A DNA stretch of 64,000 bases from Dethiobacter sp. (GTDB taxonomy: Bacteria > Bacillota > Dethiobacteria > Dethiobacterales > Dethiobacteraceae): positions 1 through 64,000 of the forward strand of contig JAGXRN010000053.1 in assembly GCA_018335875.1 (NCBI GenBank), read 5' to 3'. The translations under genes were made by a program, and so were the position numbers. Shown piece by piece: positions 26,010 through 57,793 of the stretch; the stretch's first letter is position 1, and each line of letters opens with the position of its first letter. Below the pieces are notes generated by a model. The model was given only the letters and a program-made list of their open reading frames with translations. It made no database searches and had not been told where the DNA came from.

Positions 26010-26062
26010 GTTTAAGCTCCTATCATTGAGTAGTCAACCTGCCGGCTGTTATGCATCTGAAA

Positions 26063-26102
26063 AAAAGAGGCTGCCGACCCTGTTTGTCAGCAGCCTCTTT
26101 TT
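26063..26102 (-). terminator. Terminator of the rnfG-to-cytochrome array
   Basis: AAAGAGGCTGCCGAC pairs with GTCAGCAGCCTCTTT with T runs on both sides. It follows the diheme cytochrome stop by six bases. Confidence 0.92.
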
Positions 26103-26107
26103 GCTGT

Positions 26108-26359
26108 CTATCGGTGACAGGCTAAGCAGTTTTCCCTGTCAGGGTGATCAAACAGAGGCGCCATCTTAATTCCGCGCACGTGACAGGAAATACATTCTGA
26201 TGGGATGTATTCTCCTGAAACATGGGGGAATGGAGGTATCGTACCCGGTGATGTCCTGGCAAAAGCAGCAGTAAAGGCAAAGCTCAGTACAAAGATAAGG
26301 GCAACAATGCCGACTATAAAAATCATACCGACAAAATTTGATTTATTCATGCTGCTCAT
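26108..26359 (-). CDS. Small membrane-anchored diheme c-type cytochrome
   Basis: 83 residues: one N-terminal membrane helix (about 10-33), then a short exported domain with two heme-binding motifs, CISCH (56-60) and CLACH (78-82), separated by 17 residues, and ending one residue after the second motif. Two further histidines (46 and 72) could be axial ligands. The length resembles the tiny cytochromes that hand electrons to or from a membrane cytochrome b. It overlaps the cytochrome b gene by four bases (ATGA), so the two products are probably made in equal amounts. Confidence 0.88.
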   Translation of the reverse strand: MSSMNKSNFVGMIFIVGIVALIFVLSFAFTAAFARTSPGTIPPFPHVSGEYIPSECISCHVRGIKMAPLFDHPDRENCLACHR

Positions 26360-27048
26360 GCCACATGCCCTCCCGTTTCAGAGGCTTTTTTGTCTTCTTT
26401 AACTTCTATAACCTCGGTAGCTTCCCCTGCCCAGGCCGGCCAGATTTTCCTGGCAGTTTTTTCATCGATGCATCCGTCTCTGAACATAGTGCGGGCCATA
26501 CCCCTGTAGGGCTTATAGAGTCCCGAGCCCAGCACCACATGCCCTCCCAGCATGGCAAGGAGAACAATGGCACCCATCCTGTGCAGCCAGCCCAACAGAA
26601 CCATCTCCCGCGGTGACAGTCCGGGGAAAAGAACCCATACCAGACCTGTAGCACCGAGCAGCGCACAAAGGCCGATAGTCATGCCGCCGTTAAATTTCTG
26701 GCCCGGATTATATTTACCCTCAAACAAAGGCATCTTGGTCTTGGTATTTGTCAACACATAAAGAGGAAACAGCGCCATCCACTTGGTATCAACCATTGTC
26801 CAGTGAGTTATCTCTTTAATAAACTTGATAAACCCTTTCCAGTTGATTATAACCATGATAAGCGGAACAGCGATGAAAACAAGTGCTGCTGCCCTGTGAA
26901 CCAACATCGTTACCCTATAGCCGCCGATTAATCTCGCCAGCCAGGGCCAATACCAGGTGAGGCCGGTAAAAAAGAGAAGAGCAGTTGCAATAAGGTGAGT
27001 CCAGTGTACAAAACGCTCACGTTTGCTGTTGCGGTAAAAAGTTTTCAT
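26356..27048 (-). CDS. Formate dehydrogenase gamma (FdnI)-like cytochrome b
   Basis: 230 residues with four or five membrane helices. The histidines expected to hold the two b hemes are at H18, H51, H156 and H170, matching the spacing in FdnI-type cytochromes, and the loop KYNPGQKFN near residues 112-120 is typical of this family. The tail (about 205-230) is charged. These subunits pass electrons between a quinone and an iron-sulfur or cytochrome partner. No formate dehydrogenase genes are nearby; the partner is instead the diheme cytochrome with which it overlaps. Confidence 0.88.
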   Translation of the reverse strand: MKTFYRNSKRERFVHWTHLIATALLFFTGLTWYWPWLARLIGGYRVTMLVHRAAALVFIAVPLIMVIINWKGFIKFIKEITHWTMVDTKWMALFPLYVLTNTKTKMPLFEGKYNPGQKFNGGMTIGLCALLGATGLVWVLFPGLSPREMVLLGWLHRMGAIVLLAMLGGHVVLGSGLYKPYRGMARTMFRDGCIDEKTARKIWPAWAGEATEVIEVKEDKKASETGGHVA

Positions 27049-27084
27049 GATTTCACCCTCTCCTGAATTGTATTTACCCCCGGC

Positions 27085-27741
27085 TTACAGAGCTTCGAGT
27101 TCCTCTATGTCACGCTCTGTCTCCGAGCTGTAATAGATTAAACTGTGTATTTCTATGGTCAGATCGGCATAGTGGATGTGGACTCCTTTAGGGACCTGAA
27201 GCCTGACAGGCGCCATATTAAGTATTGCGGTTACGCCTCCTTCTGCCAGTTCATCAACCACTTCCTGGGCACATTCTGCGGGAACAGTTACTATTGCTAC
27301 CTTTATTTTAGCTTCAGTGATAAAATCCTTTAGCTGTTTAGCATCTTTCACTTCAAGGTCAAATATTTTCTGTCCGATTACCTGAGGGTCGCGGTCAAAA
27401 AGGCCTACTATGTTAATGTAAGGATTTTTGGCTATATTGTAGCGGCTGATAGCGGTACCAAGATGCCCCATTCCCACAATAATTACACTTGTCTGCCTGT
27501 TCAACCCGATGATTGTAAGTATTCTTTCACGAAGATACTCTGTGTTATACCCGCTCCCCCTGGTACCGAACGCTCCAAAATACGCAAAATCCTTTCGTAT
27601 TTGCTCTGCGCTGAATCCCGTAATCTCACTTAGGCTTCTTGAAGATACAATTTCCACGTCACGCTTAATCAGATTGTCGAGTATACGCAGGTAGAGCGGA
27701 AGACGCTTGATTACCATCCTTGGGATACTTCTGTAAGGCAT
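27085..27741 (-). CDS. rex: Redox-sensing transcriptional repressor Rex
   Basis: 218 residues. N-terminal winged helix (RSLSEITGFSAEQIRKDFAYFG) and C-terminal Rossmann domain with the NAD(H) motif VGMGHLG near residue 90. Rex senses the NADH/NAD ratio and represses redox genes when NAD is abundant. It is embedded between menA and cytochrome b on the same strand, spacing 66 and 36 bases, so it may autoregulate this array. I did not find a convincing Rex operator nearby. Confidence 0.95.
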   Translation of the reverse strand: MPYRSIPRMVIKRLPLYLRILDNLIKRDVEIVSSRSLSEITGFSAEQIRKDFAYFGAFGTRGSGYNTEYLRERILTIIGLNRQTSVIIVGMGHLGTAISRYNIAKNPYINIVGLFDRDPQVIGQKIFDLEVKDAKQLKDFITEAKIKVAIVTVPAECAQEVVDELAEGGVTAILNMAPVRLQVPKGVHIHYADLTIEIHSLIYYSSETERDIEELEAL

Positions 27742-27807
27742 TTACATTCCTCCTGTCTTTCTTTTAACATGGGCTAGTATTCAGGTATCTTAGTGAACTT
27801 CAATTCG

Positions 27808-28704
27808 TTAAATATACCTGCTGAGAGCAAGTCCAAAGATGAACAGAAGTCCAAACTGGAGATGAAGCTGAGCTGCCAGCACATCAACCATTGGCAGTTG
27901 CGGAGAATGCTTACCTTGTGCGGTAATCTCTATTACATTGATCGGTTTCAGGGAAAACGGCACCGTAATCAAAGTTAGAAGTGCCCATTTGCTGAGGAAG
28001 CCGCTAAGTGACATTACTACTACGATAAGATAGGCACTGCCAACAAGAAGATAATAGAGGAAACGTGCTTTTTGACGCCCAAGAACTATAGACGGGCTTT
28101 TAATGCCATGCGCGCTGTCATGTTCTATATCCCGATACTCATTGGCATATAAGATTGCGCCTACCAGGCACCCCACAGGCAAAGAAGCAAGCATCACAGG
28201 CAGGCTTATGGCTGCGGTCTGCACATAGTAAGCTCCTCCGACCATCAGAGGCCCCATTAACAAGAACACTAACGGTACACCTAAGCCACGGTATTTATAG
28301 GCCGGGCCGGCAGTATAAAAGTAGCCTCCGGCCAGGCCGGTTACCGCAAGTACCAAGAGCAGCGGCCCGCGGATAAGAAAAAGGTAACCCGTGATTGGGA
28401 TAACCAGGCTTAAAGCAACGATGCCGCCTGTGAGAATTTTTTTTGGTTCCATGAGAGAAGCCGTCAACACTCCGCTTGAACCGTAAGACTCAGGTGTGTC
28501 AATGCCGTTTGTATAATCATAATAGTCGTTGATAAGGTTGGTGCCTGTATGGAGTAGCATTCCGCCTGCAAGGGTAAGCACAAACAGGAGGAGGTTAAAG
28601 TAACCGTCGTTTACACCAAGTATCGTGCCAAGAATTACAGGAATGACTGAAGCCGGATAGGCAAACGGACGTACCGCCTGAGCCCAGAGCTTAATTTCAG
28701 ACAT
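27808..28704 (-). CDS. menA: MenA-like 1,4-dihydroxy-2-naphthoate prenyltransferase
   Basis: 298 residues from ATG 28704, after AAGGAG; it overlaps nothing. UbiA-fold membrane protein with about eight helices. The first Asp-rich motif is NLINDYYDYTNGIDT near residue 55 and the second is NEYRDIEHD near 190; both bind the prenyl diphosphate via magnesium. It should make demethylmenaquinone or a related naphthoquinone. It starts 13 bases after the rnfD stop, so it is the fourth gene of this array. No other men genes are present in the window. Confidence 0.88.
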   Translation of the reverse strand: MSEIKLWAQAVRPFAYPASVIPVILGTILGVNDGYFNLLLFVLTLAGGMLLHTGTNLINDYYDYTNGIDTPESYGSSGVLTASLMEPKKILTGGIVALSLVIPITGYLFLIRGPLLLVLAVTGLAGGYFYTAGPAYKYRGLGVPLVFLLMGPLMVGGAYYVQTAAISLPVMLASLPVGCLVGAILYANEYRDIEHDSAHGIKSPSIVLGRQKARFLYYLLVGSAYLIVVVMSLSGFLSKWALLTLITVPFSLKPINVIEITAQGKHSPQLPMVDVLAAQLHLQFGLLFIFGLALSRYI

Positions 28705-28717
28705 ATATTTATCTCCT

Positions 28718-29725
28718 TTAAGCTTGAGAGCGCTTAAAAATAAAGCCAAATTTTCTTCTTCTGGTCATTTTATCTATATAGGGAACACAGGCATTTAAAA
28801 TCAGGATGGAAAACAGTACTCCCCCGTCCGGAACCCAGAACTGTGACGCGAACAAGCGGAAGAATACAACAAGCAGCCCAATCCCCATCCCGAAGATTAT
28901 GGCGCCTTCTTCTGTTATGGGGCTTGTCACCCAGTCAGTAGCCATGAAGAAAGCACCAAGAATCAAGCCTCCGGTCAGGACATGGTAAATCGGGTCAGCG
29001 CCAAACAGGAAGGTGAATACCATAACTGTGCTTATGATTGAAACAGGTATAAACCAGTTGATTTCTTTTTTGTAAAGCAGGTAAGCGGCGCCAACCAGCA
29101 GAGCAAGTATAGAAGTTTCCGCCAATGCTCCTCCTTTAAAGGCAAAAAGAAAACTGATGTAAGGCGACATCGGCATATTATGGGCCAGCCGCATCAGCGG
29201 CGACGCTTTGGAGAGAGCATCGACAACTTCCAACTGGTACAAATAAGGAGTTGTAAACGGAAGCACACGCATCAGAAAAGAAGCCATGTAAACTAAACTG
29301 GCACGACCTATAAGCAAAAACAATCTTGCCGCCAGCGCAGGATTAAATCTGTTCCACCCCAGGCCGCCCATGTATTCACGAAACAGCGCTGTTGCTAAAA
29401 ACCCGCCAAGAGTATACAGGGGCACTACAGCCCACCATGCCGTGGGCGGCAGCGTCAGTGCAAGCAGCAGACCTGTCACCACAGCCGTCCCGTCATGCAG
29501 TGTCGGCTCCTGTCCTTTTGCTCTTCTTGCTATCACTTCACCAAGAACGGCGCCGGTTACGCATACTGCAATGACAAGGATGGCACCAAAGCCAAATATA
29601 TAGAGTGAAACCAGAATAACAGGAGTAAGTGACATAATAACATTTTTCATTGCTCCGGCTACGGTCTCCCTTGATTGCAGGTGCGGGGCCGGGCCTACTA
29701 CTAAGCTTTCAGCAGTTATACTCAT
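28718..29725 (-). CDS. rnfD: RnfD-like subunit of an incomplete Rnf module
   Basis: 335 residues with about nine helices. It matches RnfD/NqrB (GLGWNRFNPALAARLFLL and FFMATDWVTSPIT). The covalent-FMN position reads VDALSKASPLMRL with Ser 175 where most RnfD proteins have Thr; the second RnfD in this window has Thr (T150 in TTAATPL). It sits 12 bases after rnfC, followed by menA. The family transfers electrons across the membrane with flavin and, in complete Rnf, moves sodium or protons. Here the RnfA and RnfE partners are missing from the array. Confidence 0.92.
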   Translation of the reverse strand: MSITAESLVVGPAPHLQSRETVAGAMKNVIMSLTPVILVSLYIFGFGAILVIAVCVTGAVLGEVIARRAKGQEPTLHDGTAVVTGLLLALTLPPTAWWAVVPLYTLGGFLATALFREYMGGLGWNRFNPALAARLFLLIGRASLVYMASFLMRVLPFTTPYLYQLEVVDALSKASPLMRLAHNMPMSPYISFLFAFKGGALAETSILALLVGAAYLLYKKEINWFIPVSIISTVMVFTFLFGADPIYHVLTGGLILGAFFMATDWVTSPITEEGAIIFGMGIGLLVVFFRLFASQFWVPDGGVLFSILILNACVPYIDKMTRRRKFGFIFKRSQA

Positions 29726-29737
29726 AATTTTTTCCTC

Positions 29738-31051
29738 CTACTTTTTATGACGTCTGACCATTATTTCTGTTTTTGCTTTTTTGATTAAATTAACAGTGGG
29801 CCGTTTGGCAAGACATACATAGGAGCACGTACCGCATTGCATACAATCCAGAGCGTCCCACCTTTCAGCCTCTCCGTAATTGTCCAACTCAACACAGGTA
29901 CTGATATAGTTGGGGTAGAGAAGCATGGGACAAAACCTGACGCACCTGCCGCAGCGTACACAGTTGTGAGTGTCTGTCTCCTGAGCCTCTTTTTGCGAGG
30001 GTAGAAGCACCACACCGTTGGTGCTTTTGACCACAGGCACACTCAAATCAGCTTGCGAAAACCCGGTCATTGGACCTCCGAGCAGAACTTTGGTGAATCC
30101 TTCTTTCAGGCCACCACATTCGTCAATTAGCTGCTGTATAGGTGTCCCTATTTTTACCAGCAGATTGCCCGGCTCTACTATATTTTGGCCTGTCACTGTC
30201 ACAATCCGGTCTATCAGAGGCTTATTCAGTACAGCAGCCTCATATATGGCGAAAGTAGTAGCCACATTCTGCACCAGCACACCCACATCAAAGGGCAACC
30301 CCCCTGAGGGCACTTCCCTGTCCATGACAACCTTAATCAGGTGTTTCTCAGAACCCTGTGGGTATTTTGTGGGCAGAGAAACAACCTCAATCCTGGTGTC
30401 GTCAATGTGCTGCCTGATCAGATTAATAGCATCACTCTTGTTATCTTCAATACCAAAGTAACACTTTTGCACACCCAGAGCTTTCAGCAGAAGCTTGGCG
30501 CCGGCAACCAACTTGTCCGGTTGTTCAAGCATTAGCCGATGGTTGCATGTCAGGTAGGGTTCACATTCACAGCCGTTTAGGATAACTGTATCAACCGGCT
30601 TAGCTGGGTTTAATTTAACCGATGTGGGGAAAGCCGCCCCTCCCATGCCTACAATCCCCGCCTCGGTGATGGCAGTAATGATTTCCTCACGGCTTAAACT
30701 GTCCAGATCTCTTGGCGGCCCAAACACAGCCGGTTCTTGCTCGCGGTCTACTTTAATCACAATGCTGTTTATTTTTTCACCGGTAAAATTAGGTCTTGGT
30801 TCAATAGCCGTTACAACTCCTGTAAGACTGGCATGAACCGGTGCACTGAGAAACTTTTCGCTGTGGCCTATTTTTTGTCCTGCCACCACTCTCTCGCCAA
30901 CCTGCACCAAAGGCTCACAGGGGGCGCCGGCGTGCTGCTGAAGCGGTATTATAATCTCTTCAGGCAGGCCGGCCGGCCTGGTGGGCTTTTGACTTGTCAG
31001 CTCTTTATAATAGGGAAGATGGATGCCCTCTTTGAAAACTGCCAGACTCAT
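29738..31051 (-). CDS. rnfC: RnfC-like NADH- and iron-sulfur subunit of an incomplete Rnf module
   Basis: 437 residues. N-terminal barrel-like domain (APCEPLVQVGERV), flavin/NADH domain (GIVGMGGAAFPTSVKL near 140-155, then ECEPYLTCNHRLM) and two 4Fe-4S motifs, CVRCGRCVRFCPM near 366 and CMQCGTCSYVC near 407. RnfC is the peripheral subunit at which NADH and FMN react. It is the second gene of the rnfG-C-D-menA array, preceded by a 203-base gap. It is about half identical in pattern to the RnfC at 56.5 kb but clearly a different copy. Confidence 0.94.
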   Translation of the reverse strand: MSLAVFKEGIHLPYYKELTSQKPTRPAGLPEEIIIPLQQHAGAPCEPLVQVGERVVAGQKIGHSEKFLSAPVHASLTGVVTAIEPRPNFTGEKINSIVIKVDREQEPAVFGPPRDLDSLSREEIITAITEAGIVGMGGAAFPTSVKLNPAKPVDTVILNGCECEPYLTCNHRLMLEQPDKLVAGAKLLLKALGVQKCYFGIEDNKSDAINLIRQHIDDTRIEVVSLPTKYPQGSEKHLIKVVMDREVPSGGLPFDVGVLVQNVATTFAIYEAAVLNKPLIDRIVTVTGQNIVEPGNLLVKIGTPIQQLIDECGGLKEGFTKVLLGGPMTGFSQADLSVPVVKSTNGVVLLPSQKEAQETDTHNCVRCGRCVRFCPMLLYPNYISTCVELDNYGEAERWDALDCMQCGTCSYVCLAKRPTVNLIKKAKTEIMVRRHKK

Positions 31052-31254
31052 AACTTTTCCTCCGTTCTAAAGCTGTAATTTATTTTAAAGCCAAACCTTC
31101 TCTCTGCTATCCCACTGCTTACCAAATCCTAGAGAACGTTATCCCATTCACAGTGGTCAACAAAAAAATAAAAAATTGGGTCGGTATCGTTTCAGCAAAT
31201 CCTTGGTGCGATTCTACGCTGTGAGGAACTGTTTAAAATTATCGGGCTTAATCA
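31052..31254. other. Gap between rnfG and rnfC
   Basis: A 203-base stretch with no credible reading frame, no clear terminator and no recognised RNA. It could hold an internal promoter or decayed coding sequence. Confidence 0.4.
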
Positions 31255-31827
31255 CTACTTTAAGTTAAGAGCGAGGAAGAGGTCGATGGCATCAAGGATA
31301 CCGTTGGCGACTGCGCGTGAGGATACGGTGGCGCCGGAAACAATATCCACATCATCCAGAGAAAACGCTCTCTTTCCTGCAATCAAAGTCTTGTCTTTAA
31401 ACTGGGAAAGAAAAACCTGACTTTCCACTTTGGTACCTATACCCGGGGTTTCACCGTGATTGCGGATAATTACATCTCTGAGACTGCCATCACTGGTAAC
31501 CAGGACAAGCACCTCAAGAGGTTGGCCCCAGAAACCTTTCCTATTGCCGGGAACCGCAGCAGCAAAGACATTATTGTTTTTTACTCCAAGGTATACATCG
31601 TGGCCGTTTACATCGACCTGTTCGTATGTATCTGCCTCGGGCATAAGCCTATCCAGAGCATTCATCAGAGCAACATATTCATTATGGGCTATAATGGGGG
31701 CGGTGTGCTGGCGGGTCATTGTGATAGCGCTTGCAGAGATTGCGCAAATAATGGCTAATACCAATGTCCCCCGGATACCTTCTCTTACCCAATTGGTAGG
31801 TTGTTTTGCATACACTTCAGAAGTCAT
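31255..31827 (-). CDS. rnfG: RnfG-like flavoprotein subunit of an incomplete Rnf module
   Basis: 190 residues: membrane helix near 20-37, then an extracytoplasmic FMN-binding domain. The covalent FMN site is the SGAT motif (DIVSGATVSSRAV), with the acceptor Thr at 167. ApbE attaches FMN phosphoester to this residue. It is the first gene of the array on the minus strand, transcribed away from the two-component genes. The second RnfG in the window (54.9 kb) has the same motif at T151. Confidence 0.92.
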   Translation of the reverse strand: MTSEVYAKQPTNWVREGIRGTLVLAIICAISASAITMTRQHTAPIIAHNEYVALMNALDRLMPEADTYEQVDVNGHDVYLGVKNNNVFAAAVPGNRKGFWGQPLEVLVLVTSDGSLRDVIIRNHGETPGIGTKVESQVFLSQFKDKTLIAGKRAFSLDDVDIVSGATVSSRAVANGILDAIDLFLALNLK

Positions 31828-32182
31828 TCAACTCACCTCTTTCTGTTTTCTACTACCTTTTGACCATATAAGCAGTACGCTTGTGAATTTATATCTGAAA
31901 GTTCTGCTTATTCTCATTTTAAAGGAGTACTCATCCCGCGTCCATCGGGGATTGTGCCAATTTAAAGCATTCTTTTTACCCGCGTAGCAGAATAGAACAT
32001 GGGGGTAAAATCATACCTAAGGTGGGGTAATACCTGTTATCCCTATAGGAGATTTAAAACAAACTCTGGCTTGCAGCCGCTACTTATGCTATGCTATTAG
32101 ATAAGAACATAATTATTATTTCCGTACATTAATAACGGTGCTGCAGGCTGGCAGCACCGGTCGGCTAAAGGGGCTAATTAGT
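31828..32182. other. Divergent control region between rnfG and the kinase gene
   Basis: A 355-base gene-free stretch that must hold the promoters of both divergent units. It is AT-rich. I saw a single half-site-like TTGTGAA at 31881 but no clear palindrome, and no promoter strong enough to call. Confidence 0.5.
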
Positions 32183-33574
32183 GTGAGCGTGCTAAACAGA
32201 ATCAGCGGGATACGCGGTAAAGTAATCGGTATTGTCTTGGTTGTGACACTGATGCTGTCAATATTAACCATAGTTTATATACAGACAACCCTGCAGTCTG
32301 CGCTGGCTGAGCAGCTTGAGCAAAAAGCGGTTTCCATTGCCAGAGATGTTGCCTCCCGCAGTATTGACATGATTCTTTCAAATAACTTCTATACTATGCA
32401 CAGGCTCGCCAGGGATACTATGGAGAACAACCAGGATGTAAGTTATGTAATTTTTTTACAAAATGATAAAGTTCTGGCCGATACCTTTCTGGGTGGTTTT
32501 CCTACTGACCTGGCGCCGGCAAACCCCCTTACTCCAGACAAAAGATTTAGTCTGGCCAGGGTTCAGACAGAAGAAGGGATTCTGCGTGACGTCGCCGTTC
32601 CTGTCCTTGGAATGGACGGTGTGGTTGTGAGGGTAGGCGTCCTTGATCACAGCATTAAAACCACTCTTTCCTCAGCCACCCGTCAGCTGCTGCTAATCTC
32701 AGCGCTAACTTTCCTTTTAGGTAGTTTCACAGCTTACCTCCTAACCACGCTAATAGTTATAAGACCCATCAGCATCCTGTCAAAATCGGTTCAGGATGTA
32801 TCACGGGGAGACCTCACCAGGCAGGTGCGGGTAAAATCACATGATGAACTAAGTGAACTGGCAGGAGCTTTCAATACCATGGTCAAGCGTCTTGCCACGG
32901 CCCACAGAGTACGAAACAGGCTGTTAAAAAAGATTATTCACACCCAGGAAGAAGAAAGACGCAGAATAGCCAGGGAACTACACGACGAAACCGGTCAGAC
33001 ACTGATGACACTGATGATTGCCCTCAGCCAAATTGAAGATTCCGAAACTGTTTCCGACCTGAAAAAATACACACGGGAATTCCGCACTCTGCTCCTGCAC
33101 ACACTGGAGAGCGTCAGGCTTCTGGCCTGGAAACTGTCCCCCATCCCCCTGGCAGATTTAGGCCTAAAAGCGGCAGTTGAACTTTTTATTAAAAAATATT
33201 CCAGAAATGATAACTGGAAAATAGAGTTTCAGGCAGATGGTTTTGATAAAAAAAGGCTATCCCCTGAGATTGAGACAGCCGTCTATCGTGTTGTGCAGGA
33301 AGCGCTGACAAATGCCGCCAAACACGCACAAGCCCGCAATGTATCAGTAATAATGAAATGCGATGACCAGAATGTTGTTGTAATAATCGAAGATGACGGC
33401 AATGGGTTTGATGTATCGGCCGTTAAAGAAGAAGGAATCTTTAACACATGCCTGGGACTGGCATCCATGGATGAGAGGATTTCCCTTGTGGGAGGGACAC
33501 TTAATATTGAATCCGCTGCACACGGCACCACCATTTACATTAAGATACCATTAAATTATTCAGGGGGTGATTAA
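32183..33574 (+). CDS. NarX/LiaS-type sensor histidine kinase
   Basis: 463 residues from GTG 32183, spaced well from AGGGG; a longer frame from 32138 is open. Membrane helices at about 13-33 and 169-193 enclose a ~135-residue extracytoplasmic sensor. A HAMP segment (about 195-245) and a HisKA_3 box ARELHDETGQTL (His 267) follow. The ATPase domain has EALTNAAKHA and EDDGNGFD. It overlaps the response regulator gene by eight bases. Divergent position beside rnfG suggests it may sense redox or an electron acceptor for that array (inference). Confidence 0.9.
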   Translation: MSVLNRISGIRGKVIGIVLVVTLMLSILTIVYIQTTLQSALAEQLEQKAVSIARDVASRSIDMILSNNFYTMHRLARDTMENNQDVSYVIFLQNDKVLADTFLGGFPTDLAPANPLTPDKRFSLARVQTEEGILRDVAVPVLGMDGVVVRVGVLDHSIKTTLSSATRQLLLISALTFLLGSFTAYLLTTLIVIRPISILSKSVQDVSRGDLTRQVRVKSHDELSELAGAFNTMVKRLATAHRVRNRLLKKIIHTQEEERRRIARELHDETGQTLMTLMIALSQIEDSETVSDLKKYTREFRTLLLHTLESVRLLAWKLSPIPLADLGLKAAVELFIKKYSRNDNWKIEFQADGFDKKRLSPEIETAVYRVVQEALTNAAKHAQARNVSVIMKCDDQNVVVIIEDDGNGFDVSAVKEEGIFNTCLGLASMDERISLVGGTLNIESAAHGTTIYIKIPLNYSGGD

Positions 33575-34241
33575 AATTTCTAGGTTGACAAATATCATGC
33601 TTGTGGATGACCATACCCTTTTTCGCTCAGGCCTCAGAATGCTCCTGGAAAAGCAGCCTGATATCAGTGTTGTCTCCGAAAATGCCAATTCAACGGACGC
33701 CATCAACGCTCTTCCTGAAACAGAAGTTGACTTGGTTCTGATGGATATCGGCCTGCCCGATATTGACGGGCTGGAGGCGACGCGCTTGATTAAAGAGAAG
33801 CACCCAAACGTAAAGGTTATAGTATTAACCATGCACAACGATGAACCTTATTTGTTAAAGGCGCTGGAGGCCGGAGCATCCGGCTATGTGCTCAAGGAAG
33901 CGGCAAGCACTGAACTGGTTTCGGCCATCCGTACAGCCATGAAAGGCGAAATGGCCATCCACACGTCAATGGTAAAGCACCTGGTAAGCAAGGCGCTCAC
34001 GGGCAAGACTGAGGCTGCGGCCGTGACTGAAGGCGTTTTAACAAACCGTGAAAGGGAAGTTCTGCATTACATCGGCCTGGGATACACAAACCGCGAGATT
34101 GCCGACATCCTGATTGTAAGTGTTAAAACAGTGGAAAAACATAAAGCCCATATCATGGAGAAACTTAATCTTAAACGCCGCCACCAATTGGTGGAGTATG
34201 CCATAAAAAAAGGCGTCGTCAACATGGCGCAGCAGAACTAA
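33567..34241 (+). CDS. NarL/LuxR-type response regulator
   Basis: About 224 residues. Receiver domain with the acidic pair LVDDH, phosphoacceptor Asp 60 (LVLMDIGLPD) and the Lys of YVLKEA; LuxR-type helix-turn-helix at about 155-220 (LTNREREVLHYIGLGYTNREIADIL). The start is uncertain: GTG 33567 lies inside the AGGGGGTGAT site, and a TTG at 33585 is an alternative. Overlap with the kinase gene suggests translational coupling. It is followed by a strong terminator. Confidence 0.92.
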   Translation: MIKISRLTNIMLVDDHTLFRSGLRMLLEKQPDISVVSENANSTDAINALPETEVDLVLMDIGLPDIDGLEATRLIKEKHPNVKVIVLTMHNDEPYLLKALEAGASGYVLKEAASTELVSAIRTAMKGEMAIHTSMVKHLVSKALTGKTEAAAVTEGVLTNREREVLHYIGLGYTNREIADILIVSVKTVEKHKAHIMEKLNLKRRHQLVEYAIKKGVVNMAQQN

Positions 34242-42929: not shown

Positions 42930-43457
42930 TTAAGCTTTATATGGCCGCGACACGTGCGACAGTGCCTGGTTGGCATAACCAACTGCCATGCCGGTAAAGA
43001 AACCGGTGGGGAGAGCAAGGATAAGCAGAAGCGGCAGATACAGTTTAAGCAGGTTTATATTTCCGATCAACACACTGGCAGTGGCGACCTGGGCTGTATT
43101 ATGCGCCACTGCGCCGAGGATGCTGACAGCCACCAATGAAATGCGGCCGCTGCGCCACAAGCGTATGCCGATGGCCATGGCAGCGGTGGAAACAATACCA
43201 CCGGTAAAACTCAGATAAAAACCAAAGCCCAGGAAATTGCCGAGAAATATACTGCCAAGCACTGTCCGTATTACTGTCACAAGCAGCGCCGGTTTAAATC
43301 CGTAAAGTATAAATGTGAGGAGGGTAATAATATTGGCAAGTCCAAGCTTAGCCCCCGGCACAAGCATCGGCAATGCAATGGTGGCCTCCACGGTGTGTAT
43401 AACCAGTGCAAAAGCCACAAGCAGCGAGAGATGAGTCATCTTTCGTGTATTTGTCAT
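42930..43457 (-). CDS. Gx transporter family protein (heptaprenyl diphosphate synthase component I-like)
   Basis: 175 residues with five or six helices and the PGAKLGLANIITLLTFILYG block of the family once annotated as heptaprenyl diphosphate synthase component I and now often called Gx transporter. It overlaps the apbE gene by four bases (ATGA). The family regularly accompanies apbE and FMN-binding proteins, which suggests a part in flavin or membrane redox supply. Exact function unknown. Confidence 0.8.
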   Translation of the reverse strand: MTNTRKMTHLSLLVAFALVIHTVEATIALPMLVPGAKLGLANIITLLTFILYGFKPALLVTVIRTVLGSIFLGNFLGFGFYLSFTGGIVSTAAMAIGIRLWRSGRISLVAVSILGAVAHNTAQVATASVLIGNINLLKLYLPLLLILALPTGFFTGMAVGYANQALSHVSRPYKA

Positions 43458-44464
43458 TGGCGGATCTCTACTTTACCAGCGAGGCCGCTTGTAATGTGGA
43501 CTTGCTCATCTTCGGTAATCATGATTGCCTCAAGTTCAGGCAGAGATTCGATTATCTCCATCCCTTTTTCCAGGCCCAGCACAAAAAGCGCTGTGGAGTA
43601 GGCATCGGCTGTAAAAGCATCCGGTGCAATGACTGTGACACTTATTATACCGCGCGAAGGTTCGCCGGTTTTGGGGTCGATGATATGGTGATATCGCACA
43701 TCATCCACCACAAAAAAGCGTTCATAGTCGCCTGAAGTTACAATGGCTTTATCACGCAGCTCGACAATGGCTATAATTCCACGCCTGTCGCGAGGGTGCC
43801 TTACGCCTATGCGCCATGCACTGCCATCTGGTTTTTCTCCGATTACCCTGATGTCGCCGCCGGCATCGAGGTAGGCGGAAGTAATCCCCTGCTCAAGCAA
43901 AGCCTCAATTGCCATATCAACTATATAGCCTTTTGCAATACCGCCCAGGTCCAGCTCAGTGCCGCCTCCATCCAGAAAAACCGTACCGTCGTTATTATTT
44001 ACCTGTACTCTGCGAAAATCCACCAGTTTAACAGTTTGAGCCAGTTCATTTTCGCTTGGAACATAGACATCAGCACTGCCAAACCTCCACAAATTTATCA
44101 GCGGTGCGATGGTGATGTCAAAGGCGCCTCCTGTTTGTTCGCCTACCTGAAGCGACTTTTTTATCACATCGAGAGCCTCCGCAGAAACAACAATGGGCCT
44201 TGTCCCGGCGTCCCGGTTTAGAACAAACACTTCTGAATCAGTGTGATGCCTGTCCAGGATTATTTCCAGACGGTACATCTCCCCAAAAGCTGAACTGAGC
44301 GCATTAACCCCCTGCCGGCGGTTTCTGGTATAAATAACACTGTTCACGATAGTATCCATGAGAAATTCAGTGCGCTCTATTTTCTTTTCTGCCCGGACCA
44401 TATAAAGAACAAAGCCCGCAAGAATAATACCTACGGCAAGGTATATCAAAGATGATTTTTTCAA
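43454..44464 (-). CDS. apbE: ApbE, FAD:protein FMN transferase
   Basis: 336 residues from TTG 44464, seven bases after GGGGAG. Residues 5-24 form an N-terminal membrane anchor without a lipobox cysteine, unlike many ApbE lipoproteins. The core has FDITIAPLINLWRFG near residues 120-134, ELDLGGIAKGY near 170 and the metal-site block TADAYSTALFVLG near 295. ApbE attaches FMN to Thr/Ser of RnfG, RnfD and NqrC-type proteins outside the membrane. This copy should serve both Rnf sets in the window. Confidence 0.93.
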   Translation of the reverse strand: MKKSSLIYLAVGIILAGFVLYMVRAEKKIERTEFLMDTIVNSVIYTRNRRQGVNALSSAFGEMYRLEIILDRHHTDSEVFVLNRDAGTRPIVVSAEALDVIKKSLQVGEQTGGAFDITIAPLINLWRFGSADVYVPSENELAQTVKLVDFRRVQVNNNDGTVFLDGGGTELDLGGIAKGYIVDMAIEALLEQGITSAYLDAGGDIRVIGEKPDGSAWRIGVRHPRDRRGIIAIVELRDKAIVTSGDYERFFVVDDVRYHHIIDPKTGEPSRGIISVTVIAPDAFTADAYSTALFVLGLEKGMEIIESLPELEAIMITEDEQVHITSGLAGKVEIRQ

Positions 44465-52942: not shown

Positions 52943-52979
52943 TAAAAGCGGTGCGGAAGGCCTTCCGCACCGCTTTTAT
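52943..52979 (-). terminator. Terminator of the complete Rnf operon
   Basis: A self-complementary hairpin of AAAAGCGGTGCGGAAGG and its inverse, beginning next to the rnfB stop codon. Confidence 0.82.
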
Positions 52980-53761
52980 TAAGCTATGGTATTTCGCGGG
53001 CAGGATTCCACGCACTTTCCGCAATTGGTGCATATATAGCTGTCAATAACTGCCAGGTTGTTTTCCATGCGGATCGCGTTCTCAGGGCAATTCTTAACGC
53101 AAATGCCGCAGGCAATACAGCCTCGCTCGCAGACCGACCGGACCTGCTTTCCTTTATCCTGTGACTTGCAGCGCACATAGTGATAAGTTTTAGCATTAAC
53201 CATATCAATAACCTGGCGAGGACAGGCATTCTTACATTTTGCACAGCCTGTGCACTTGTCAATATCCACAATCGGCAGTCCGTCCTCACTCATGGTAATG
53301 GCGTCGAAAGGACAGACGCGGGCACAGGTGCCAAGCCCCAGGCATCCATACTGGCAAGCCTTGTTGCCTCCACCAAACATTAATACCGCTTTGCAGTCCC
53401 TGTAGCCATCGTAGACTGATTTATCTTTGGCCACGCTGCAACCACCGAGGCAGACCGGCTGCGCCACAATTCTCGCCTCTGCGGCAGGTGTCTCCTGCCC
53501 CAGCAGCTCCGCAATTTTAGCTGCGGTAGCAGAACCTCCAGGCGTACACCCGCTCACAGGCGCATTGCCTGCCACTACTTCTTCGGCAAACTTGGCGCAT
53601 CCGGGATAACCGCAGGCGCCGCAGTTAGCACCAACTAAGGCCTCCTGAACCATTTCAATCCTGGGGTCCACTTCCACGGCAAACTTCTGCGACGCATAGG
53701 CCAGCAGAGCCCCGAAAATAATCCCCAGTCCCCCCAGGCTGATAATAGCAACAGCTAACAT
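52979..53761 (-). CDS. rnfB: RnfB, ferredoxin-type iron-sulfur subunit
   Basis: 260 residues: membrane anchor (about 3-25), a 4Fe-4S domain with CGACGYPGC near 48 and further cysteines, then ferredoxin-like pairs CARVCPFDA, CTGCAKCKNACP, CIACGICVKNCP and CTNCGKCVESCP. RnfB receives electrons from ferredoxin. It is the last gene of the complete operon (C-D-G-E-A-B). Confidence 0.97.
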   Translation of the reverse strand: MLAVAIISLGGLGIIFGALLAYASQKFAVEVDPRIEMVQEALVGANCGACGYPGCAKFAEEVVAGNAPVSGCTPGGSATAAKIAELLGQETPAAEARIVAQPVCLGGCSVAKDKSVYDGYRDCKAVLMFGGGNKACQYGCLGLGTCARVCPFDAITMSEDGLPIVDIDKCTGCAKCKNACPRQVIDMVNAKTYHYVRCKSQDKGKQVRSVCERGCIACGICVKNCPENAIRMENNLAVIDSYICTNCGKCVESCPRNTIA

Positions 53762-53780
53762 GTGTTCTTCTCCTCCTTGC

Positions 53781-54359
53781 CTACTGCATCATGCCCTGGA
53801 ATCCCATAAAAGCAATGGACAGGATTCCGGCAATAATGAGAGGTAGAGCTACTCCACTGAAATGTTTTGGAATAAAAGCAAGCTCCAGGCGTTCCCTGAT
53901 TCCGGCCATGATGACCAGGGCCAGAGTAAAGCCTACCGCTGCGGCTACGCTAAAGATAACAGCCTCAAACAGGCTATAGCCAATCTGGATGTTCAGGAGA
54001 GCCACACCAAGCACGGCACAGTTGGTAGTAATAAGCGGCAGGAAAATCCCGAGCGCCTGGTAGAGAGCCGGGCTTATTTTACGGATTACCATTTCCACAA
54101 ACTGGACAAGCGTTGCAATTACCAGGATAAAGACTATTGTACGCAGGTACTCAAGGTCTCTGGGCACAAGCAGGAAATGTTCAATCGGCCAGGTAACCAG
54201 AGCCGTCATGGCCATAACAAAGATAACGGCCATGCCCATACCCAGGGATGTCTCGGTTCTCTTTGAAACGCCAAGAAACGGGCAGATGCCAAGAAAACGC
54301 GAGAGCACAAAATTGTTGATAAAAATGGCGCCGAAGATAATTATTATAATGTTCTGCAT
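53781..54359 (-). CDS. rnfA: RnfA membrane subunit
   Basis: 192 residues, six helices. NNFVLSRFLGICPFLGVSKR near 16 and TTNCAVLGVALL near 110 hold the cysteines that bind the intramembrane 2Fe-2S cluster with RnfE. 19 bases before rnfB. Confidence 0.97.
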   Translation of the reverse strand: MQNIIIIIFGAIFINNFVLSRFLGICPFLGVSKRTETSLGMGMAVIFVMAMTALVTWPIEHFLLVPRDLEYLRTIVFILVIATLVQFVEMVIRKISPALYQALGIFLPLITTNCAVLGVALLNIQIGYSLFEAVIFSVAAAVGFTLALVIMAGIRERLELAFIPKHFSGVALPLIIAGILSIAFMGFQGMMQ

Positions 54360-54373
54360 GGGTTATCCCCCCC

Positions 54374-54973
54374 TTACTCCAGTTTAAATTTTTTAGACAG
54401 CATATTTACCAGAGCCATCAGCAGGCCAAGCGCAAGAAATGCGCCGGGCGGAAAAGCAAAGACCTGAAAGGGCTGGTAGCCAAAACCAAGGAGATTGCGC
54501 CCAAAGATAGTGCCGGCGCTGAGTATTTCACGTACCGCCCCCAGGATTGTCAGGGAAAGTGTGAAGCCAAGGCCGATGCCAAGGCCGTCAGCCACTGAGT
54601 TAACAACTGGATTCTTGGAGGCAAATGCTTCGGCGCGCCCTAAAATAACGCAGTTCACTACAATCAGCGGCACAAATATTCCAAGTTGTGAATGAAGCCC
54701 GGGCTGGTAGGCCTTGAGCAGCATGTCAACCATGGTCACAAAAGTGGCAATGACCACAATAAAGCAGGGAATCCTGATTCGGCTTGGAATTAAATCCCTC
54801 AGCACAGCGATGAAAAGATTGGAGAATACCAGCACTGCCGTGGTGGAAAGGCCCATGCCTAATCCATTGGTAGCCAGTGATGTAACAGCCAGCGTGGGGC
54901 ACATGCCCAGCACTAACCGGAAGACAGCATTTTCTTTGACAATACCTTTGGTAAAGTCACGCATTATATTCAT
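54374..54973 (-). CDS. rnfE: RnfE membrane subunit
   Basis: 199 residues from ATG 54973, seven bases after GGAGGT; the longer frame extends into rnfG. LVLGMCPTLAVTS near 22 and VVNCVILGRAEAF near 105 match the cysteine-bearing RnfE helices. 14 bases before rnfA. Confidence 0.96.
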   Translation of the reverse strand: MNIMRDFTKGIVKENAVFRLVLGMCPTLAVTSLATNGLGMGLSTTAVLVFSNLFIAVLRDLIPSRIRIPCFIVVIATFVTMVDMLLKAYQPGLHSQLGIFVPLIVVNCVILGRAEAFASKNPVVNSVADGLGIGLGFTLSLTILGAVREILSAGTIFGRNLLGFGYQPFQVFAFPPGAFLALGLLMALVNMLSKKFKLE

Positions 54974-54974
54974 T

Positions 54975-55508
54975 TCACTTACCTCCGGCAATAAAGATAT
55001 CCATGATTTCCTGCAGCTCTTGTTTAACACCCGAGGCCATGGCCCGGGCAGACACGGTGGCGCCGCTGATACTGTCTATATCCTTACCGACGGCAAAAGC
55101 ATCATCGGCCGTTTTCCCTACAAACTGTTTGCGGAAACCATCCTCGGTGATCTTTGAGCCAAGGCCAGGTGTCTCTGAGTGATCGTTTATTTGCAAGTCA
55201 ACTATTTTTCCATCGGCGTCCACGGCCAGAGTAAAGATGATGGTACCGCCATAACCCCCTGTGCGTCCTTCATACACCACACCGGTCAGTTTCCCGCCGG
55301 CGTAGCCCACAGTGGCTGTCCTCCCATCCACCTCCCTGGGTTTAACTTCATCCACAGCAGGGAAAAGCGACTGCATCTGCTCGATTCTTTCCTGCTCCAG
55401 CCTTTTTGCAATAATCTCAGAGGTACGGGCGTTGGTGATGGCGAGCGCGCCTGCCGCCACAGCGGAGATTATCATCAGCGTCAAAGCGAGCCTGGTTATT
55501 TCTCTCAT
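54975..55508 (-). CDS. rnfG: RnfG, covalent FMN subunit
   Basis: 177 residues: N-terminal helix (about 8-25), FMN domain and SGAT motif in DSISGATVSARAM, acceptor T151. It overlaps rnfD by a single base (TAATG), consistent with coupled translation. Confidence 0.96.
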   Translation of the reverse strand: MREITRLALTLMIISAVAAGALAITNARTSEIIAKRLEQERIEQMQSLFPAVDEVKPREVDGRTATVGYAGGKLTGVVYEGRTGGYGGTIIFTLAVDADGKIVDLQINDHSETPGLGSKITEDGFRKQFVGKTADDAFAVGKDIDSISGATVSARAMASGVKQELQEIMDIFIAGGK

Positions 55509-56440
55509 TATTTAGTCACCTCCCCAAACTTCCTGGGTAGAGTGGCGCTGTCAATCAGCGGTGTCACAGCATTCATAAGCAGGATAGCAAAAGTAACGCC
55601 TTCGGGGTATATACCGTAGAGCCGGACAAGCATGGTTATCAAACCACAGCCCACACCAAAAATCAGCTTGCCGCGTGCGGTAACAGGAGATGTGACCATG
55701 TCTGTGGCCATAAAAAGGGCGCCAAGCATCACGCCGCCGGCAAGAACATGAAATAGTCCGGCTGAAACCATGGCCGTCAGAGAGCCGCTTCCTGCCAGAA
55801 AGACACCCATGATAAATACAGTGCCAAGGTAACCACCGGGTATGCGCCAGTCAATATGTCCTTTATAAAAGAGCCAGGCAGCGCCAAGCAGCAGGGCAAA
55901 AGCACTCGTTTCACCGATACTGCCGGGCACAGTTCCAAAAAATAAGCTGACAAACCCGGTCTGAACACCTTTGGCTGCCAGGGGCAAAGGTGTGGCCGCC
56001 GTAGTCAGATCGAGAGGGCTCAGCCATCCTGTCATATGTGCAGCCCAGGAAACCATTAAGATAGCGCGCGCCACCAGCGCCGGATTGAAGATATTATTGC
56101 CAATGCCGCCGAACACCTGTTTTCCTATGGTAATGGCCACCACGCCGCCTATTACAGGCAGCCACCAGGGAGGCGCCGGGGGCAGAACCATCGCCAACAG
56201 CAGGCCAGTCACAGCGGCACTGCCATCGCCGAGGATGTTTTTATCTCTTAAAATAACAGCTTCGGTAACCATGGCTGCCAGCATACAAAGAACCATTGTC
56301 AGAAGAGCCTGGTAGCCGAAAAAGATCACCCCGGCAATAGCAGCGGGGAATAAGGCCAAAAGTACATCGCTCATCACGCTCTGTATTGACTCAGGAGTCC
56401 GCAGGTGAGGCGACGATGAAACAACCAGTTTAACTTCCAT
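55508..56440 (-). CDS. rnfD: RnfD, membrane flavin subunit
   Basis: 310 residues with about nine helices. FMN attachment region TTAATPLPLAAKG, acceptor T150; NNIFNPALVARAILMVSW near 115. This copy carries Thr at the attachment site, in contrast to the Ser in the incomplete module. 24 bases after rnfC. Confidence 0.96.
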   Translation of the reverse strand: MEVKLVVSSSPHLRTPESIQSVMSDVLLALFPAAIAGVIFFGYQALLTMVLCMLAAMVTEAVILRDKNILGDGSAAVTGLLLAMVLPPAPPWWLPVIGGVVAITIGKQVFGGIGNNIFNPALVARAILMVSWAAHMTGWLSPLDLTTAATPLPLAAKGVQTGFVSLFFGTVPGSIGETSAFALLLGAAWLFYKGHIDWRIPGGYLGTVFIMGVFLAGSGSLTAMVSAGLFHVLAGGVMLGALFMATDMVTSPVTARGKLIFGVGCGLITMLVRLYGIYPEGVTFAILLMNAVTPLIDSATLPRKFGEVTK

Positions 56441-56464
56441 CAGTTATCCCTCCTTTGCGTCACG

Positions 56465-57793
56465 TTACTTTCTGCGTTTTGCTGCAATATCGCCCTTGGC
56501 CATACGAATCCACTGTACCAGCGGCCGCTTAGCCGGGCAGACATAAGTGCAGCAGCCGCACTCTATACAGTCCATGGCGTTAAATGCTTCTGCTTTTTCG
56601 TATAAACCATGCTCCACTGCGCCACCAATAAAGAGCGGCATAATGCTGACGGGGCAGACATCTGAGCATTTGGCGCATTTAATGCACGGCTTGATCTCGT
56701 GTATTTTTACTTCAGCATCAGTCAGGCAAAGTATTCCCGATGTACCCTTGATGACCGGCAGGTCAGCACTGGGTTGCGCAAGCCCCATCATGGGGCCGCC
56801 AAGGATCATCTTGCGGATGTTTTCCTTAAAACCGCCGCATTGCTCTATAACTTCACTGATCATGGTGCCTACACGGACACGCATATTTTTAGGCTCATTA
56901 ATACCTGAACCGGTGATTGTGACAATACGCTCAATCAAAGGCCTGCCGAGCCGCACAGCCTCTGAAACAGCAATACATGTACCCACATTCTGCACCACAC
57001 AGCTCACATCCATGGGCAACCCGCCTGAGGGGACTTCCCTGCCGGTGAAGACGTTAATCAGCTGCTTTTCCGCGCCCTGGGGGTATTTGGTATGGAGGGC
57101 ATGCACCTCTATATTAGCCTCGCCTGCAGCCGCTTTTTTCATAGCTTCCACTGCATCCGGTTTATTATCCTCAATGCCTATATAGCCTTTAGGTGCATTA
57201 ACCGCCTTCATCACCAGTTTAAGGCCTATTACTATATCGTCAGGGCTTTCAAGCATTGCCCGGTGGTCGGAGGTGAGATATGGTTCACATTCTGCCGCAT
57301 TGACAATTACAAATTCAATTTTTTTATCCGGAGGCGGTGACAGTTTAACATGGGTGGGAAAAGTGGCGCCTCCCATACCCACAATACCTGCTTCACGAAT
57401 AATCTTTTTCAATTCACCGTCACTGAGTTCTTCATAGTTTGGATTAGGCTTAATATCCTCATGCCAGGTATCCTGTCCGTCCGACTCAATATAAACAGCC
57501 TGGACAGGCCGGCCCAGCACGTGGTTGCACATGCCGATTTGAATCACCTTGCCTGAAACACTGGAGTGGACAGGCGCGGAGACAAATCCCTTACTGTCGC
57601 CAATCTTTTGGCCCATTTTCACTTCATCGCCGACCGCTACCAGCGGCTCACACGGCGCACCTATATGTTGGGCCAGGGGGATAACCACTGTTGCAGGCGG
57701 CCGGGCCGGCACTGTGGGCTTGCCCTCTGTTGCTCTTTTAAAGTGTCCCGGATGGATGCCGCCTTTAAACGTTTTAAAACTCATATGCTTCAT
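56465..57793 (-). CDS. rnfC: RnfC, NADH and iron-sulfur subunit
   Basis: 442 residues from ATG 57793 (57784 is possible), after AGGGGTGA. GIVGMGGATFPTHVKL near 143-158 binds NADH/FMN; CIKCAKCSDVCP near 371 and CIECGCCTYVCP near 411 hold two 4Fe-4S clusters. First gene of the complete Rnf, which couples ferredoxin oxidation to NAD reduction and pumps sodium or protons. Confidence 0.97.
   Translation of the reverse strand: MKHMSFKTFKGGIHPGHFKRATEGKPTVPARPPATVVIPLAQHIGAPCEPLVAVGDEVKMGQKIGDSKGFVSAPVHSSVSGKVIQIGMCNHVLGRPVQAVYIESDGQDTWHEDIKPNPNYEELSDGELKKIIREAGIVGMGGATFPTHVKLSPPPDKKIEFVIVNAAECEPYLTSDHRAMLESPDDIVIGLKLVMKAVNAPKGYIGIEDNKPDAVEAMKKAAAGEANIEVHALHTKYPQGAEKQLINVFTGREVPSGGLPMDVSCVVQNVGTCIAVSEAVRLGRPLIERIVTITGSGINEPKNMRVRVGTMISEVIEQCGGFKENIRKMILGGPMMGLAQPSADLPVIKGTSGILCLTDAEVKIHEIKPCIKCAKCSDVCPVSIMPLFIGGAVEHGLYEKAEAFNAMDCIECGCCTYVCPAKRPLVQWIRMAKGDIAAKRRK

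Follow-up and report, generated by a model that had tools for sequence, protein, structure and literature searches.

The window analyzed here is the whole 64,000-nucleotide stretch of contig JAGXRN010000053.1 from Dethiobacter sp., and its minus strand carries, at 26108-31827 by open reading frame (ORF) coordinates, an array of seven genes: rnfG, rnfC, rnfD, a menA-like gene, rex, and genes for a cytochrome b and a diheme cytochrome c. Along the array the gaps are 203, 12, 13, 66 and 36 bases, followed by a 4-base overlap. A first-pass annotation had these genes running in one direction with this spacing to one terminator, and coordinates, domain searches and folding agree with that description. 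The array is real and intact and is not a product of decay. It is read here as half of an Rnf complex, an arm linking NAD(H) in the cytoplasm to the membrane's outer face, in which RnfG, together with the diheme cytochrome c, would be the outer end and pass electrons onward to an acceptor or to the cytochrome b and quinone; we give this reading a probability of roughly 0.48. The RnfC-RnfD arm taken by itself is the firmer part of the scheme and is likely. The association of this arm with exported molybdoenzymes in relatives is a more important result than the full array.

31255..31827, minus strand: rnfG (FMN_bind domain, one transmembrane (TM) segment)
31052..31254, minus strand: rnfG-rnfC gap, 203 bases (T-rich stretch, no notable fold)
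29738..31051, minus strand: rnfC (TIGR01945, cofactor motifs)
28718..29725, minus strand: rnfD (TIGR01946, alignment to RnfD set)
27808..28704, minus strand: menA-like UbiA prenyltransferase, 298 amino acids (TIGR00751, NEYRDIEHD motif)
27085..27741, minus strand: rex, redox-sensing repressor (domain libraries)
26356..27048, minus strand: FdnI-like cytochrome b (Ni_hydr_CYTB/FdnI-like match, heme His positions)
26108..26359, minus strand: membrane-anchored diheme cytochrome c, 83 amino acids (two CxxCH motifs)
26060..26102, minus strand: rho-independent terminator (folding)
32138..34241, plus strand: HAMP/HisKA_3 sensor kinase and LuxR-type response regulator, divergent from the array (domain match)
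43454..44464, minus strand: ApbE flavin transferase (domain match)
52979..57793, minus strand: complete rnfCDGEAB, a separate set (domain match)

Folding confirmed the terminator 3' of the diheme gene, a hairpin of 17 pairs and a T run (-27.6 kcal/mol, z -7.9); the promoter and terminator scan did not list it, probably because the stem absorbs the T run. Promoters predicted by the scan were at chance level only. Folding of the 203-base gap revealed no special fold (z 0.09), so that rnfG may or may not be co-transcribed with rnfC and the downstream genes. For menA, the ATG at 28704, 13 bases past rnfD, is the better start. The complete rnfCDGEAB previously placed at 53-58 kb was found at 52979-57793. 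Decay of a sole Rnf copy was ruled out by this set and by the conservation of the bare rnfC-rnfD pair; the earlier view that RnfC, D and G without A, B and E do not reflect decay holds, the same RnfC-RnfD type being kept alone in dozens of relatives.

RnfC, RnfD and RnfG as a probable membrane arm

RnfC matches TIGR01945 at 524 bits, retains its NADH/flavin mononucleotide (FMN) domain (GMGGAAFP at 135) and has both 4Fe-4S motifs (Cys 364/367/370/374 and 403/406/409/413). RnfD, which matches TIGR01946 at 242 bits, is a protein of 335 amino acids with the RnfD domain alone and no fused NqrF-type NAD domain, and its riboflavin ligands N128 and D264, contacts named in PMC11889175, are conserved. 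RnfG is the most divergent Rnf subunit of the array (TIGR01947, 81 bits vs a cut-off of 102); it has a TM segment at 20-38, and its FMN_bind domain contains SGAT at 164-167, where covalent FMN is expected. As in the Rnf complexes of A. woodii and C. tetanomorphum, RnfC, D and G of the array carry the cofactor motifs of the same proposed NAD-side arm; unlike these complexes, the array has Ser at the position of the FMN-bearing Thr of RnfD and lacks RnfA, E and B, and with them ferredoxin input and the RnfA/E ion path. It is not a six-subunit Rnf, as E, A and B are found only in separate sets.

In the A. woodii Rnf structure, electrons pass from RnfB through RnfA/E to RnfG on the outside, then to the FMN and riboflavin of RnfD and through RnfC to NAD+, and RnfD is reported to have no role in Na+ transport (PMC11889175). 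A similar electron path was described in PMC9588780, yet Na+ transport was assigned to RnfD in that study. The A. woodii path implies that RnfC-RnfD forms a complete arm of its own, joining NAD(H) to the outer face. In the array, electrons from NADH would pass through the FMN and 4Fe-4S clusters of RnfC, cross the membrane by the RnfD flavins and reach the RnfG FMN outside, from which they would be handed to the anchored diheme cytochrome c, the sole outside one-electron carrier encoded alongside RnfG in the array. From this cytochrome they could leave for an acceptor or partner outside, or the FdnI-type cytochrome b could carry them back to quinone on the cytoplasmic side, closing a redox loop that would replace the missing A/E/B limb. 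The observations behind this scheme are the genes, their intact cofactor motifs and the occurrence of the stand-alone RnfC-RnfD type with formate dehydrogenase (FDH) in relatives; the function of the arm in the window, its direction, the quinone and the regulation are predictions, and the link from RnfG through the diheme protein to cytochrome b is predicted from gene position alone. It is unlikely that RnfC-D-G, the diheme cytochrome c and the FdnI-type cytochrome b together constitute a new NADH:quinone or NADH:external-acceptor oxidoreductase, which would share the U-shaped electron path of Rnf and Nqr but use a heme limb instead of RnfA/E/B and pump no ions.

A Nqr/Rnf-like two-subunit complex with proposed flow from NAD(P)H to the outside has been described (PMC8238504, PMC10979944). 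Like the array, this complex has RnfD- and RnfG-type subunits without A/E/B, and the flavinylation Thr of its RnfD is not conserved; it differs in that an NqrF-type NAD domain is fused to its RnfD, whereas the array uses a separate RnfC for this role and adds cytochromes. RnfC, RnfD and two RnfG have been reported from a haloalkaliphilic acetate oxidizer (PMC6295475), and direct interspecies electron transfer has been reported in the class Dethiobacteria (PMC10608574). No description of the array was found among open-licence papers.

The stand-alone RnfC-RnfD type in relatives

When 100 relatives were searched with the window RnfD, the matches fell into a high-score group (about 230-342 bits) and a low-score group (about 160-229 bits). 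The flanks of the high-score group show rnfC paired with rnfD, and G, A, E and B are missing. Among 51 stand-alone RnfD loci in other genomes (48 distinct), rnfC is adjacent in 46, and four of the five loci without it end at a contig edge. An FdnH-like four-cluster protein is encoded at 41 of the 51 and a molybdoenzyme catalytic gene, whole or partial, at 35; RnfG, A, E and B are encoded at none. The usual neighbors are FdhE, an FdnG split by an in-frame UGA, and an FdnH bearing a membrane helix at its C terminus. The UGA is read through into HS.TV in 22 FdnG genes (20 distinct), and FdnG2 scores above the FDH-N cut-off. The neighboring enzyme is a selenocysteine-containing formate dehydrogenase of the FDH-N type, exported by twin-arginine translocation (Tat), with RnfC-RnfD at the place of the cytochrome b subunit; FdnGH on the outside would stand in for RnfG/A/E/B. 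The arrangements found were as follows.

FdnG, FdnH, FdhE, rnfC-rnfD operon, no cytochrome b: L037 4407-11442, L042, L046-L048, L053, L071, L219 and others
rnfC-rnfD with an FdnH-like and a PhsA-like molybdoenzyme gene, no FDH: L054 6732-12900, L064 4314-10500, L116 3844-9940, L224 561-6500
rnfC-rnfD with an FdnH-like gene, catalytic molybdoenzyme gene not nearby: L045, L049, L052, L055, L057, L220
RnfC-like proteins of ~1000 amino acids (25-27% to RnfC), beside rnfD and a molybdoenzyme: L125 5881-8964, L226 7992-11015

The PhsA-like (thiosulfate-reductase-like) enzymes score under the PhsA cut-off. That RnfC-RnfD is encoded with exported formate dehydrogenase in relatives suggests that the outer partner of the arm is exchangeable. 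The stand-alone type is not confined to the class, occurring also in other families of its phylum, with Anoxynatronum buryatiense, Natronincola peptidivorans and a Dehalococcoidia metagenome-assembled genome (MAG) among the named records; matches in a scan of genome contigs with a profile of the RnfD alignment were mostly ordinary Rnf sets of Bacteroidetes. In the literature, rnfC-rnfD beside FDH has been described in a single genome, the digester MAG unFirm_1, where RnfC and FDH were detected in the metaproteome (PMC5080403). In unFirm_1, RnfC and RnfD stand alone, the other four Rnf subunits being missing, and the array shares this pair. Unlike the array, unFirm_1 has FDH as the outer partner, and no rnfG, menA, rex or cytochromes were reported there. 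Neither FdnG nor FdnH was found near the array, so it is not an RnfCD-formate dehydrogenase module.

Tree analyses placed the window RnfD inside the stand-alone type, apart from complete-set RnfD (support 100/99) and sister to the RnfD of genome G074 (99/96), while FDH-linked RnfD of the same family form their own clade, with the window outside; the exact place of the window RnfC was not resolved in the RnfC tree. Of these loci, the window alone has rnfG. By its gene content the array is a variant with RnfG in place of FdnGH as outer partner and with the cytochrome b/diheme cytochrome c pair added. The G074 locus was considered as another copy of the array and rejected: it has no rnfC, 464 non-coding bases lie upstream of the sister RnfD, and an FMN-binding lipoprotein comes after it, then the third, Nqr-like set.

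Rnf is usually treated as a single six-subunit pump. From these loci, the NAD-side arm of Rnf seems to be separable and to be wired to varied outside enzymes, i.e., formate dehydrogenase, thiosulfate-reductase-like enzymes and, here, cytochromes. In syntrophs, the membrane voltage (negative inside) would then push electrons of NADH to an outside CO2/formate enzyme, a direct route of reverse electron transport, and the old question of how NADH electrons become outside formate would be testable with a two-subunit arm.

Cytochromes, quinone supply and regulation

The array cytochrome b resembles that of formate dehydrogenase-N (FdnGHI) in having His at the four FdnI heme-ligand positions (15, 51, 156 and 170) and the KYNxGQK motif (at 112). 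It scores under the curated cut-off of TIGR01583 and is of the Ni_hydr_CYTB/FdnI/b561 type by domain libraries. Unlike FdnGHI, the array has a diheme cytochrome c instead of FdnG or FdnH. This protein contains CISCH and CLACH (CxxCH at 56 and 78), extra His at 46 and 72 and one N-terminal hydrophobic segment; it matched no Pfam or NCBIfam family, and a PDB search gave no significant match. FdnI passes electrons from the outside to menaquinone on the cytoplasmic side (PDB 1kqf). The flow from quinone through cytochrome b to the exported cytochrome that the first-pass annotation had proposed is the reverse of this known direction.

The array could instead hold two independent units, an NADH-linked RnfCDG arm for some other outside partner, and menA, cytochrome b and diheme cytochrome c serving an exported oxidoreductase encoded elsewhere. 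The best relative of the cytochrome b (41%), in genome G186, lies beside a formate-dehydrogenase/nitrate-reductase-like molybdoenzyme and a tetraheme cytochrome, and further relatives sit in FdnGHI operons; the nearest menA relatives (64-69%) are located away from rnfCD, and the Dethiobacter genome itself encodes other molybdoenzymes. However, the genes from rnfC through the diheme cytochrome c are tightly spaced with a single terminator, the cytochrome b is single-copy in its own genome with no relative above E 1e-8 among genomes of the same class, and no exported oxidoreductase gene is adjacent to it here, which makes two units somewhat unlikely. The close menA relatives occupying other contexts, MenA was dropped as a lead to further arrays. 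The menA-like gene, which scores above the TIGR00751 cut-off, is one of two MenA-like genes in its genome; the second is on contig C54, near a six-heme cytochrome gene on the opposite strand (L269, 6438-7415 and 8172-9629).

Several results weigh against the half-Rnf reading. In RnfD, Ser175 replaces the FMN-bearing Thr, which is present in the other 41 of 42 RnfD compared; Ser serves as FMN acceptor in other ApbE substrates (PMC10979944), and the ApbE encoded in the window could in principle flavinylate RnfG and RnfD. In the solved Rnf, RnfA/E provide most of the hold on RnfG, whose contact with RnfD is slight (PMC11889175), and the array lacks RnfA/E. RnfCDG with cytochrome b and diheme cytochrome c occurred in no other genome searched (about 97 from the class and a sample of about 400 from the phylum, with no other genome of the genus among them), so that a functional RnfCDG-cytochrome link is suggested by one gene neighborhood. 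Conservation had been named as a test of the proposal, and only the rnfC-rnfD core is conserved, the full array being a single case. In the own genome, all MenD matches are below the family cut-off, MqnE was not found and the MqnA-like match is weak (39.9 bits); neither known menaquinone route is therefore evident. Neither MenD nor MqnE was found above cut-off in any of the seven other genomes tested, most of which have MenA-like genes. The naphthoquinone leg of the NADH-to-outside route proposed earlier is thus doubtful, while its RnfC-D-G arm fits the solved Rnf. Rex would tune the array to NADH/NAD+, but a search with two consensus forms of the Rex operator gave nothing above chance and no operator in the array. 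The divergent two-component pair at 32138..34241 is a possible regulator.

A further explanation is that RnfC, D and G serve as alternative subunits, joining the E, A and B proteins of the complete set and altering its electron outlet. The complete rnfEAB lies in the same window, another E/A pair is on contig C1, and the hold of RnfA/E on RnfG described above would be satisfied. By contrast, the RnfC-RnfD type is without A/E/B at all loci seen, mostly beside FDH, an ordinary RnfD occurs elsewhere in most genomes with this type, and C, D and G are already encoded in the complete set; such sharing of subunits is quite improbable.

Other Rnf and formate dehydrogenase loci in the genome

The genome (G000; 3.19 Mb, 85 contigs, 97.7% complete, 6% contaminated) has three RnfD genes, in the array, in the 52979-57793 set and in a set on contig C1. 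A formate dehydrogenase locus on contig C80 (L079, 7632-9242) is broken; it has a truncated fdhE and no rnfCD, and its fdnG has lost most of the middle and the export signal and is fused to the end of fdnH. Since a broken FDH locus without rnfCD is present, the array could be what remains of a lost formate dehydrogenase, an arm that no longer has a fixed partner. However, the C80 locus may reflect an assembly fault as well as decay, the window RnfD falls outside the clade of same-family FDH-linked RnfD, and the array genes are intact and include rnfG, unlike every FDH-linked locus. A leftover arm is very improbable, and the half-Rnf arm with RnfG as its outer end is preferred.

The third set, on contig C1 (L082, 4870-13131), consists of an RnfC/NqrA-like subunit with Fe-S motifs, D, G, E, A and an NqrF-like subunit, together with a five-heme cytochrome and a second rex, and looks intermediate between Rnf and Nqr. 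A similar Rnf/Nqr-like third complex with rex is found in L033 (1545-7759), the five-heme cytochrome being in G000. In the window, at 42930-44464, apbE is followed directly by a gene of the heptaprenyl diphosphate synthase component I family. On contig C47 (L242, 9862-10351), RnfC-, RnfA- and RnfB-like fragments lie within about 500 bases, the remains of a further Rnf operon.

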